Assembly: GCA_028683435.1 (NCBI GenBank) | Contig: JAQUIG010000026.1 | Span: 1 to 40,455 of the forward strand | Direction of reading: 5' to 3' | Length of the DNA stretch: 40,455 nucleotides | From: Desulfuromonadaceae bacterium | Lineage (GTDB): Bacteria; Desulfobacterota; Desulfuromonadia; Geobacterales; Pseudopelobacteraceae | Shown: positions 26,976 through 29,149 of the stretch, in pieces | Numbering within the stretch: position 1 is the first letter of the stretch | How the letters are laid out: each line of letters starts with the position of its first letter | The notes under the pieces: generated by a model | Databases searched by the model: none | What the model was told of the DNA's origin: nothing | Seen by the model: the letters and a program-made list of their open reading frames with translations, nothing else | Translations under genes and position numbers: made by a program

Positions 26976-27581
26976 TTGATTGATCTGTGTGGCCGCACCC
27001 TTGCGTCGTTTCTTGTTTTTTGGGTTCTGAGCTCGACCGGTTCCGTCGTGTTCGCTGCGACTCCTCTACGAATGCGGCCTTATACAGGGATTGGCGTGGT
27101 CGTTTTTCGGCAGGCAGACAATTCTCAAAAGAACCTGCATCTGCAGTTATACAAAAAACCGGGCCTTTCACGGGTTGGAGTGCTGAATCGTCCCAGATTA
27201 TCCGGCAATGAATGGATCTTTGGTTTGCAGGAGGGGCATTCAACGCTGGTTGTTTCTGCCCGTAAAGGTGACTGGCTGCGGATATATTACGATGATGCCG
27301 GCCGGGAAGCATGGATTGACCCACTGAATAATGGACGTTTTCAATCGTGGGAAGAGTATCTGAAACGGCAGACCGGCCGGTTGCTTCCCGGTCTGCAGCC
27401 GAAATATTACCAGATGCAGCAGCCTGGTGGGAGGGCGTTCGCTACAATGTCTCCAAAACAGGTATTCAAGGTTTTAAAACTTGAGAATGAGTGGGGAATG
27501 GTGCTGACCGACCAAGCGCAGATCGGATGGCTGCGCTGGCGTGATGAGGACGGCAGGCTTTTGATGGGGATCAATCCTTGA
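26976..27581 (+). CDS. Exported protein with SH3-like repeats, function unknown
   Basis: A 201-residue protein. The N terminus has a signal-peptide-like stretch (TLASFLVFWVLSSTGSVVFA, cleavage after FAA near residue 28). The body looks like bacterial SH3 domains: LHLQLYKKPGLSRVGVLN, then VVSARKGDWLRIYYDDAGRE, then a second copy ending VLKLENEWGMVLTDQAQIGW. Such proteins often bind cell-wall glycans. No ATG lies in the frame before the signal peptide; TTG at 26976 with GCGGAG about 11 bases upstream is the best start. It follows the VOC gene by 80 bases. Confidence 0.6.
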   Translation: MIDLCGRTLASFLVFWVLSSTGSVVFAATPLRMRPYTGIGVVVFRQADNSQKNLHLQLYKKPGLSRVGVLNRPRLSGNEWIFGLQEGHSTLVVSARKGDWLRIYYDDAGREAWIDPLNNGRFQSWEEYLKRQTGRLLPGLQPKYYQMQQPGGRAFATMSPKQVFKVLKLENEWGMVLTDQAQIGWLRWRDEDGRLLMGINP

Positions 27582-27608: not shown

Positions 27609-27637
27609 TTGACGTCCCCGCATCGGTATGATATTGA
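27609..27637 (+). promoter_or_regulatory. Candidate promoter of the Ala-leader and aminotransferase
   Basis: TTGACG at 27609-27614, 17-base spacer, TATTGA at 27632-27637; an alternative -10, TATGAT at 27627-27632, is closer to consensus but only 12 bases away. Either start point (about 27640-27645) is at or just before the leader ATG, so the leader mRNA would have almost no 5' untranslated region. Confidence 0.4.
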
Positions 27638-27645
27638 CACCCATT

Positions 27646-27729
27646 ATGATGATCATGCTTACAGCAACAGCAGAACGAGCTATTATCGCCGCGGCGCGTA
27701 ATGCCGCAGCTCTGCCTGTTGCCCGCTGA
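27646..27729 (+). CDS. Ala-rich leader peptide of a predicted attenuator
   Basis: A 27-codon ORF, MMIMLTATAERAIIAAARNA then AALPVAR and TGA. Ten of 27 codons are Ala (GCA, GCT, GCC and GCG are all used), with two Ala triplets at codons 15-17 and 20-22. It ends 29 bases before a strong terminator (27759-27788), upstream of an alanine-type aminotransferase. Such repeats of one amino acid before a terminator are typical of leader peptides in ribosome-mediated attenuation. No clear ribosome site precedes it; the promoter position suggests leaderless initiation, and codons 2 or 4 (also ATG) are alternative starts. Expression is inferred. Confidence 0.55.
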   Translation: MMIMLTATAERAIIAAARNAAALPVAR

Positions 27730-27774
27730 TTATCGCTCCACTTCAAAAGATAATCGCAAGCCGTGGGCAGGAGC
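27709..27774 (+). promoter_or_regulatory. Alternative pairings that would prevent the attenuator terminator
   Basis: TGCCCGC (27720-27726, the last leader codons) can pair with GTGGGCA (27763-27769, 5' arm of the terminator), 7 pairs with one G-U. GCTCTGCC (27709-27716) can pair with 27766-27774, 8 pairs with one bulged G. A ribosome at the stop codon would hide these segments; one stalled on the first Ala triplet would leave them free. A separate hairpin, GATTATC/GATAATC (27728-27734 and 27749-27755), lies between. Confidence 0.45.
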
Positions 27775-27788
27775 CCGCGGCTTTTTTT
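27759..27788 (+). terminator. Attenuator terminator before the aminotransferase
   Basis: Stem AGCCGTGGGC/GCCCGCGGCT (10 pairs, one T-G) with loop AGGA, followed by seven T's. It stands 56 bases before the aminotransferase start and 29 bases after the leader ORF stop. Confidence 0.85.
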
Positions 27789-27844
27789 ATTGGATGCGGT
27801 CTGGCAGATAATTGATGCATATAAACCATACAGGGAGAACATGG

Positions 27845-29149
27845 ATGAGAATTGAACTGGTAGCGCCAGGAACCGGCGAGTTGACGTATGAAATCAGAAA
27901 TATCGTCAATGTGGCAGAGAAGCTCCAGAAACATGGTGTCAAGATCAACTGGGAAAACATTGGGGACCCGATTGTCAAGGGTGAAAACATTCCGGAGTGG
28001 ATGAAGGAGGTTGTCGCCAGAGCCGCAATGGACAACCGTACCTGGGGCTATTGCCATACCCGCGGTGTGCTTGAAACCCGTGAATTTATCTGCGAAAAGA
28101 CCAATAGTCGCGGCGGTGCTCAGATTACTCCTGATGATATCATTTTTTTTAACGGGCTTGGAGACGCCATTGCCAAAATCTACGGTTGCCTGCGTCCGGA
28201 GGCGCGGGTGCTTATGCCGTCGCCATCCTACACCACCCACACTCTGGGTGAGATTGGCCATGCCCACTCTGCTCCTTCGCTGTTTTGCCTCAAGCCGGAT
28301 AACAACTGGTACCCGGATATGGAGGATCTGCGCAATCATGTCCGCTACAATCCGAATATCTGCGCGATCATGCTCATCAACCCGGATAATCCGACCGGTA
28401 TGGTCTACACCAGGGAGCTGTTGCAGGAGATCGTTGCGGTAGCCCGTGAGTACGACCTGTTCATCATCGCCGATGAGGTTTACATCAATATCGTGTATAA
28501 CGGTGAAAACACGGTGCCGATCAGTGATGTGATCGGCGATGTCCCAGCTATTTCACTGAAAGGGATATCGAAGGAGTTCCCGTGGCCAGGGTCACGCTGC
28601 GGCTGGATTGAAGTGTATAACGGCGAGAAAGACGAACGCTTCAAGAAATATATCAACCTGATACTTACCGCCAAGATGAACGAGGTCTGTTCTACAACTC
28701 TTCCGCAGACAGTCATCCCCGAAATCGTCAGCCATCCCGAATATGCCGCGTACCTAGTGGAGCGCATCGCCAGTTACGAGCGGATGAGTAACATTACGTA
28801 TGATTGTCTCAGCCAGGTTCCTGAGCTGCAGGTGAATCGTACCAACGGCGCTTTTTACATGGCCGTGGCATTCAAGGATGGTTTGCTGAACAACCGGCAG
28901 TCGCTTCCGATCGCCAACCATGAGGTCAGGGAACTCGTTGATGGTCTGGTCAATCAGCCGGGAGTCTCTCCCGATAAGCGCTTCGTCTATCAGATACTGG
29001 CAGCAACCGGCATCTGCACGGTGCCGCTTTCTTCGTTCTCGACACCGCTGCAGGGGTTCCGTGTGACCCTGCTTGAGAAAGACGAGAATGAGTGCCGCCG
29101 TATTTACCGCACACTGGCGGAGAAAATTGGTGAATATCTGAATTCCTGA
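27845..29149 (+). CDS. Alanine-type (glutamate-pyruvate) aminotransferase, class I/II PLP enzyme
   Basis: A 434-residue pyridoxal-phosphate enzyme. The order of motifs follows E. coli AlaA: YEIRNIVNVAEKLQKHG at the N terminus, NIGDP, GYCHTRGVLETREFI, the INPDNPTGMVYTRELLQEIV segment (substrate and cofactor contacts), FIIADEVYINIVY (PLP-ring Asp and Tyr) and the Schiff-base lysine in SLKGISKEFPWPGSRCGW. AlaA-type enzymes make alanine from pyruvate and glutamate; exact substrates here are inference. The ATG at 27845 has AGGGAGA 6 bases upstream. Expression is likely governed by the Ala-rich leader and terminator upstream, and a bidirectional terminator follows at 29225. Confidence 0.85.
   Translation: MRIELVAPGTGELTYEIRNIVNVAEKLQKHGVKINWENIGDPIVKGENIPEWMKEVVARAAMDNRTWGYCHTRGVLETREFICEKTNSRGGAQITPDDIIFFNGLGDAIAKIYGCLRPEARVLMPSPSYTTHTLGEIGHAHSAPSLFCLKPDNNWYPDMEDLRNHVRYNPNICAIMLINPDNPTGMVYTRELLQEIVAVAREYDLFIIADEVYINIVYNGENTVPISDVIGDVPAISLKGISKEFPWPGSRCGWIEVYNGEKDERFKKYINLILTAKMNEVCSTTLPQTVIPEIVSHPEYAAYLVERIASYERMSNITYDCLSQVPELQVNRTNGAFYMAVAFKDGLLNNRQSLPIANHEVRELVDGLVNQPGVSPDKRFVYQILAATGICTVPLSSFSTPLQGFRVTLLEKDENECRRIYRTLAEKIGEYLNS

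Follow-up and report, generated by a model that had tools for sequence, protein, structure and literature searches.

The window analyzed here, a stretch of 40,455 nucleotides from a Desulfuromonadaceae bacterium (assembly GCA_028683435.1, contig JAQUIG010000026.1), contains an aminotransferase gene that is preceded by a short alanine-rich open reading frame (ORF) and an intrinsic terminator. This arrangement raises the question of whether the gene is controlled through the translation of its own leader. An earlier reading of the bare sequence, called the original prediction in the following, had recognized the layout of ribosome-mediated attenuation. Comparison with related genomes supports this layout across the order, since an in-frame ORF, a cognate codon run made up of alanine only, a terminator and a competing antiterminator pairing with compensatory changes are conserved in front of a single target gene. 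The element is very probably a transcription attenuator operated by the ribosome, with charged tRNA-Ala as its signal and the gene of an alanine-forming aminotransferase as its target.

The Leader ORF and the Competing RNA Structures

The leader ORF encodes the peptide MMIMLTATAERAIIAAARNAAALPVAR, followed by a stop codon, and agrees with the original prediction in position, length and alanine content, including both alanine triplets (Table 1). The window holds 319 ATG-initiated ORFs of 15–35 codons, four of which combine an alanine content of at least one third with a run of three alanines; three of these four are nested starts of the leader ORF itself.

For the alignment of orthologous upstream regions that had been proposed as a check, a protein search was carried out over 141 genomes of the same order (Geobacterales), and the upstream DNA of 142 homologous loci from 136 genomes was compared. 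A leader of the type found in the window (main type) is present at 81 loci, 21 loci carry a variant type and 40 have neither within the DNA examined. Among the main-type leaders the alanine run, which occupies codons 5–7 of the aligned core, is kept and the stems contain compensatory changes, so that this check speaks for the prediction; conservation on this scale greatly exceeds what chance would give. It is the sole amino-acid run conserved in the 81 cores; other positions are kept in part, such as isoleucine at codon 3 (62/81) and proline at codon 14 (54/81). The suggestion that a broader set of amino acids (Ile, Leu, Val) might be sensed was rejected, as no conserved run of isoleucine, leucine, valine or threonine could be found among the 81 leaders.

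The leader also bears the marks of selection on a coding sequence. Start codons were chosen without regard to frame, and in all 80 main-type leaders with 5′ sequence (L060 has none for the promoter test) the ATG is in frame with the alanine core. The distance from the ATG to the core takes six values between 24 and 39 nt; a further value of 18 nt comes from L006, where two TTGAC motifs occur and the nearer one was used for scoring. All of these distances are multiples of three. At the first alanine of the run, GCC (52), GCA (20), GCG (7) and GCT (1) replace each other synonymously, with one non-alanine codon among the 81 leaders. In L066 and L068, a one-base shift past the triplet alters the tail of the peptide and leaves the alanine run unchanged. 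The variant-type leaders (genera g19, g21, and g27) have a different sequence, contain four to five consecutive alanines in 21 of 21 cases and start with an ATG 29–31 nt after the −35 hexamer.

A predicted promoter lies closely in front of the start codon. In 80 of 80 main-type leaders with 5′ sequence, TTGAC is followed after a spacer of 16–18 nt by the extended −10 motif TGnTA, and the ATG is located 29–33 nt past the −35 hexamer and about 6–10 nt past the −10 element. The −10 element of the window was not listed by a consensus scan because its final T is absent. A promoter of the form TTGACG-N12-TATGAT was rejected, since its spacer is too short and all 80 leaders have TGnTA at a spacing of the 17-nt type. 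Matches of at least 4 nt to a Shine-Dalgarno-like sequence are present in 3 of the 80 leaders. In line with the earlier remark that a clear ribosome site is missing, the promoter spacing makes a leaderless start probable in this order.

The arms of the terminator (27758–27768 and 27773–27783) form 11 pairs including one G-U pair, one pair more than originally described, and the seven T residues are located at 27782–27788. In the alignment of 81 sequences, 97.8% of its cells are paired. The pairing of 27720–27726 with 27763–27769, by which the last leader codons were said to compete for the 5′ arm of the terminator, exists as described and includes one G-U pair. The alignment of the order shares the register 27713–27719, and 27720–27726 is the stronger local match in this genome.

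In the 81 sequences, the shared antiterminator helix is paired in 86.1% of the cells, compared with at most 58.7% in slid registers, and changes on both sides occur at four of its seven pairs and in 24 cells. None of 500 shuffles reached its paired percentage, its number of double-change cells or its covariation score. Among 52 class-wide sequences, a 10-pair version is paired in 87.9% of the cells (at most 41.8% when slid), with both-side changes at 6 of 10 pairs in a count that omits one mismatched mid-helix column. In 47 of 60 genera, furthermore, the leader segment pairs better with its own terminator arm than it does on average with arms from elsewhere in the set of genera (Wilcoxon p 1.3e-6, a generous value because the genera are non-independent), and in 56 of 60 it pairs with this arm better than shuffled segments do. 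The region 27636–27795 folds more stably than dinucleotide-shuffled versions of it (z = −3.57), one of 200 of which scored as low. It also contains a small hairpin holding alanine codons, for which covariation is weak because only one of its six pairs changed on both sides. A further pairing between 27679–27687 and 27749–27757 was rejected, as L015, inspected by eye, does not retain it.

The effect of a ribosome was modelled by folding the RNA downstream of it before the 3′ arm of the terminator is made, with capture meaning that 6 nt or more of the terminator arm are paired. When the ribosome was stalled at the first alanine codon, the arm was captured in 75 of 81 leaders, and with a stall at the third in 78, compared with 9 of 81 when the ribosome was placed at the stop codon. 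The placement of the stop codon therefore fits a masking of the antiterminator strand.

According to the proposed mechanism, RNA polymerase would start at, or a few bases from, the leader AUG, and a ribosome would load on this 5′-terminal AUG and trail the polymerase. With ample alanine, the ribosome would clear the alanine run, reach the stop codon and cover the segment just upstream of and around it. With the antiterminator strand covered, the 5′ arm of the terminator would be free, the terminator would fold and transcription would end before the aminotransferase gene. When charged tRNA-Ala is scarce, the ribosome would stall in the alanine run, and the segment downstream of it would be free to capture the terminator 5′ arm, so that the polymerase reads through. 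In this scheme we infer the transcript start, the translation of the leader, the stalling on uncharged tRNA-Ala and alanine as the product.

Distribution, Loss and Relatives of the Element

In the order, the element is located directly upstream of the aminotransferase gene at 102 of 142 loci; counted by genome this is 102 of 136, and counted by genus 27 of 29. The 40 loci counted as having no leader include L086, which is truncated at a contig end but still shows part of a leader and terminator, L016, which has 41 nt of upstream DNA only and is treated as lacking the element in the counts and in the tree, and L087 (family f2), whose leader lies 1.1 kb further up. At this last locus (the leader being L184 of genome G001), a gene that is methyltransferase-like by eye lies between the alanine leader and the aminotransferase gene, about 1.1 kb apart.

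A covariance-model search of the order returned 81 strongest matches (E 1.2e-15 or better), one per genome, which correspond to the genomes with main-type loci and are expected by construction, since these same 81 sequences served to build the model (R1). They are followed by L184 in G001 at E 1.6e-10 and then by a match at 1.9e-6. No clear attenuator was present among 20 fetched weak secondary matches, 12 of which are the ends of Ala/Lys-rich genes followed by terminators; L213 and L214 were rejected as being of this same false kind, and the second match in the window's own genome (L315) has no alanine leader. By this comparison, one strongly conserved target gene of the element could be shown in the order.

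The same SH3-type gene precedes the aminotransferase gene in 72 of 81 main-type and in 27 of 40 leader-less loci. It ends 214–390 nt before the aminotransferase gene in the former and 33–114 nt before it in the latter, and this shortened gap indicates that promoter, ORF and terminator are present or absent as one block. For the genus to which the window belongs, a gene tree was built from 30 loci, 14 with and 16 without the element; presence changes at least three times on well supported branches and seven times on the best tree. Judged from this tree, there have been repeated losses of the element within this genus. Some genomes have two copies of the aminotransferase gene (L009 and L033 in G078, L031 and L035 in G084, L041 and L060 in G120), and in G120 one copy has a leader and the other does not.

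At the level of the class, the covariance model of the order's element matched 205 of 277 genomes (order included) and 72 of 82 genera at E ≤ 0.01, the weaker of these matches including chance matches. From the listed matches, 38 were fetched that were chosen to span families: 37 are located outside the order and belong to 16 families, and the 38th is L184. The aminotransferase gene follows in 36 of these 37, and the remaining sequence (L178) stops at the contig end before the gene. With the chosen starts, the 38 leaders contain 7 to 14 alanines, and the longest run comprises at least three in 34 of them. Shine-Dalgarno-like matches were found at 28 of 38 loci, where start codons had been chosen partly by their Shine-Dalgarno score, and in 33 of 38 the chosen start lies 43–66 nt past the nearest TTGAC. 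Because the ATG-to-promoter spacing and the Shine-Dalgarno counts differ, the leaders of the order look leaderless and most others do not; most fetched loci outside the order appear to have a longer 5′ untranslated region (5′UTR).

Among 395 genomes sampled across the phylum, a second model matched 55 at E 1e-4. Twenty of these matches were fetched, 17 of which are located outside the class: seven are alanine-rich leaders before the aminotransferase gene (families f26, f46, f72, and f109), eight are leaders rich in other amino acids and two are neither. For six of the eight the next gene could be named. A Trp-run leader (L303) is followed by a trpE-like gene (506 bits, slightly below the cutoff of 517.7), and Leu-run leaders are followed by leuA in three loci (L304, L308, and L309). 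In another class of the phylum, a Tyr-run leader precedes iorA, the gene for indolepyruvate:ferredoxin oxidoreductase alpha (L301:150-1919), which looks like a tyrosine or aromatic attenuator, and a Leu-rich leader with a terminator precedes a gene for the gamma subunit of a 2-oxoacid:acceptor oxidoreductase (L305:200-962), which suggests a leucine-attenuated keto-acid oxidoreductase. On sequence grounds, the codon run has a clear fit to the pathway of the next gene in four cases and a plausible one in two (iorA and the oxidoreductase gamma subunit). These sister attenuators serve as an internal control for the alanine run as an alanine signal. Further leaders are L307, whose Leu run lies next to a contig end, and L314, which is rich in Phe and Tyr and stands in front of another gene; together with L303, L304, L308, and L309 they represent other leader-peptide attenuators in the phylum.

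Objections and Rival Explanations

Several observations weigh against the attenuator. The original prediction had named genes kept without the ORF or its alanine codons as evidence to the contrary. In the order, 40 of 142 loci have no leader in the DNA examined, three of them being the special or untestable cases described above, and none showed a matching terminator without an alanine ORF in a scan that missed 4 of the 81 known main-type terminators. The window's sister on the gene tree (L004), with a 94% identical enzyme, is among the loci without the element, so that regulation by it is dispensable. Some leaders are poor in alanine, with 5 in 20 codons in L100, 4 in 30 in L068 and 5 in 25 in the class-level locus L312, and no run of more than two alanines occurs in two of the 80 leaders of the order and in four of the 38 at class level. 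Both antiterminator registers were picked as the top result of scanning the very alignments on which they were then evaluated, and the number of double-change pairs (241/500) and the pair types (389/500) are not above those of the shuffles. With simple folding and no ribosome, the terminator arm is still captured in 63 of 81 leaders; the classical rule that no translation leads to termination is thus not predicted. This departure from the textbook may be of small consequence if the 5′-terminal AUG is occupied by a ribosome immediately. In addition, the middle alanine codon is GCG in 81 of 81 leaders, which hints at a constraint on the RNA. Because of this, and because alanine codons lie in a conserved hairpin, part of their conservation may be due to RNA structure.

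In one rival explanation, a structured RNA (a riboswitch or a tRNA-binding leader) would sense alanine or tRNA-Ala directly, and the frame would be incidental or secondary. The CGAGC core, which may resemble the complement of a tRNA D-arm, and the GCGGC/GCCGC hairpin are strongly conserved at the nucleotide level, synonymous sites included. However, the spacing between ATG and core varies by multiples of three alone in 80 of 80 leaders, the variant genera retain the alanine run in another sequence context, and 28 of 38 class-level starts, chosen partly by that feature, have a Shine-Dalgarno-like match. No T-box or riboswitch match was obtained at gathering scores at the element or in six relatives, and no Rfam family reached its gathering score at the element in the window; with a threshold of up to E 10, one unrelated weak Rfam match was found near the locus. 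Direct sensing by the RNA is thus considered very improbable. An attenuator that works through its leader peptide and answers to another signal, either an arrest by the nascent chain or a slow codon (Arg-Ala-x-x-Ala-Ala-Ala, CGA) or a general translation stress, is unlikely as well, though it finds a foothold in the codon pair CGA-GCT. CGA is invariant in the main-type leaders of the order although it is the rarest arginine codon in 21 long ORFs of the window, where it makes up 7% of 520 arginine codons. The pair lies outside every helix found in the alignment folds, and a slow timing codon, a peptide signal or an RNA signal are possible causes of its invariance. On the other hand, variant genera without the Arg-Ala-x-x-Ala motif retain four to five alanines, the codon run suits the downstream gene in the sister attenuators, and the target gene encodes an enzyme near the AlaA-type aminotransferases.

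The chance that the terminator simply belongs to the upstream SH3-type gene and that the alanine-rich ORF is a GC-rich accident is close to nil. It is true that alanine codons make up 9.2% of the total in long ORFs of the window and that most leader loci (72/81) have the upstream gene. This explanation is contradicted already by the in-frame spacing pattern; moreover, different genera share the frame, the alanine run, the spacing of the promoter and the competing pairing, and the upstream gene ends much closer to the aminotransferase gene where the element is absent.

The attenuator responding to charged tRNA-Ala is hence preferred. A wider history, in which it would be of old phylum-level origin, would have passed from a Shine-Dalgarno-led to a leaderless start in one order and would use CGA/Arg-Ala as a timing device before the alanine run, is put forward as a tentative and rather doubtful extension. 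If the attenuator is real, alanine joins the amino acids read by leader-peptide attenuators, and a function is given to PRK06855, a family named by its chemistry class alone, as the leader would say that the cell treats the product as alanine. The apparent switch from Shine-Dalgarno-led to leaderless starts at one regulatory ORF would offer a natural experiment on the coupling of leaderless translation to transcription, and the repeated losses in one genus beside the same neighbouring gene open the cost of losing attenuation to study.

The Locus and Its Relation to Known Systems

The features of the locus are compiled in Table 1. The start codon of the aminotransferase gene is located 56 nt past the last T of the terminator tract, as stated originally. 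The protein also has a domain match to Pfam Aminotran_1_2, and its closest solved chains by sequence are 1xi9, named a putative transaminase, and 4cvq, named glutamate-pyruvate aminotransferase AlaA, which bears out the noted resemblance to AlaA. From this homology (NCBIfam match and solved relatives), the PRK06855 enzyme is predicted to make alanine. Upstream of the element, the gene at 26976–27581 encodes a protein of 201 aa that is SH3-like by eye; neither NCBIfam nor Pfam gave a match for it at E 0.001.

Table 1. Predicted features of the leader region and the aminotransferase gene; coordinates refer to the window.
Feature	Position	Strand	Basis
−35 hexamer TTGACG of the predicted leader promoter	27609..27614	+	TTGAC in 80/80 main-type order leaders with 5′ sequence
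Extended −10 element (TGA + TATTGA), 17 nt past the −35	27629..27637	+	TGnTA conserved at this spacing
Leader peptide ORF, 27 codons, 10 Ala; ATG at or near the predicted transcript start	27646..27729	+	ORF reading and frame conservation
CGA-GCT (Arg-Ala) shortly before the Ala run	27676..27681	+	CGA in 81/81, GCT in 79/81 main-type leaders
Control codons, first Ala triplet	27688..27696	+	Three codons, Ala in 80, 81, and 80 of the 81 main-type leaders
Small hairpin holding Ala codons, arms 27691–27696/27702–27707	27691..27707	+	97.1% of cells paired, 81 sequences
Second Ala triplet	27703..27711	+	Codons 1–2 Ala in 78 and 72 of 81, third in 11/81
Antiterminator 5′ strand	27713..27734	+	27720–27726 with 27763–27769; 27728–27734 with 27749–27755
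Intrinsic terminator (11 pairs) and T tract	27758..27788	+	8/10 aligned pairs with both-side changes, 81 sequences
Ribosome binding site GGGAG of the aminotransferase gene	27833..27837	+	Sequence reading
PLP-dependent aminotransferase gene, NF005334/PRK06855, 434 aa	27845..29149	+	NCBIfam 751 bits, cutoff 443

Leader-peptide attenuation in the trp, his, leu, ilv, thr, and phe operons of proteobacteria is textbook knowledge. The element resembles these attenuators in a short ORF whose codon run specifies the amino acid produced, in the stop codon before the terminator, in the antiterminator that uses the 5′ arm of the terminator and in the biosynthetic gene downstream. It differs from them by the alanine run, by one transaminase gene as the conserved target and by its probably leaderless start in the order, and a clear protector hairpin is not established here. 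T-box leaders of the alaS type, which occur in Firmicutes, would likewise read the charging of tRNA-Ala and control a terminator; in contrast, they need no ORF, and no T-box Rfam match was found here. The alanine transaminases of E. coli are AlaA, AlaC, and AvtA, whose genes are not known to carry an attenuator. PRK06855 forms a family apart from these three, a related class I/II aminotransferase with probable alanine synthesis.

The original prediction was not aware of a well-described alanine leader peptide, and none was found in the open-access literature searched, Geobacter-specific queries included, subscription papers lying mostly outside this scope. Within the same literature, no earlier report of a leader-peptide attenuator in this phylum was found. 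A word search of the main text of PMC2965389 returned neither alanine nor Geobacter nor aminotransferase, and a word search of PMC1262725 did not return alanine.

Regulatory ORFs at the 5′ end of the transcript with attenuation of downstream genes have been described for the leaderless Cys-run attenuator ORFs of mycobacteria (Canestrari et al., 2020, as cited in PMC9031893) and for trpL of S. meliloti, where the 5′ end of the transcript begins with the trpL ATG (PMC7298713). These leaders read other amino acids in other bacterial groups, and the same kind of leader occurs here with a longer 5′UTR at most fetched loci outside the order. The type of mechanism is thus known; the element stands out by its alanine run, its unusual reach, its probable leaderless start and its invariant codon pair.

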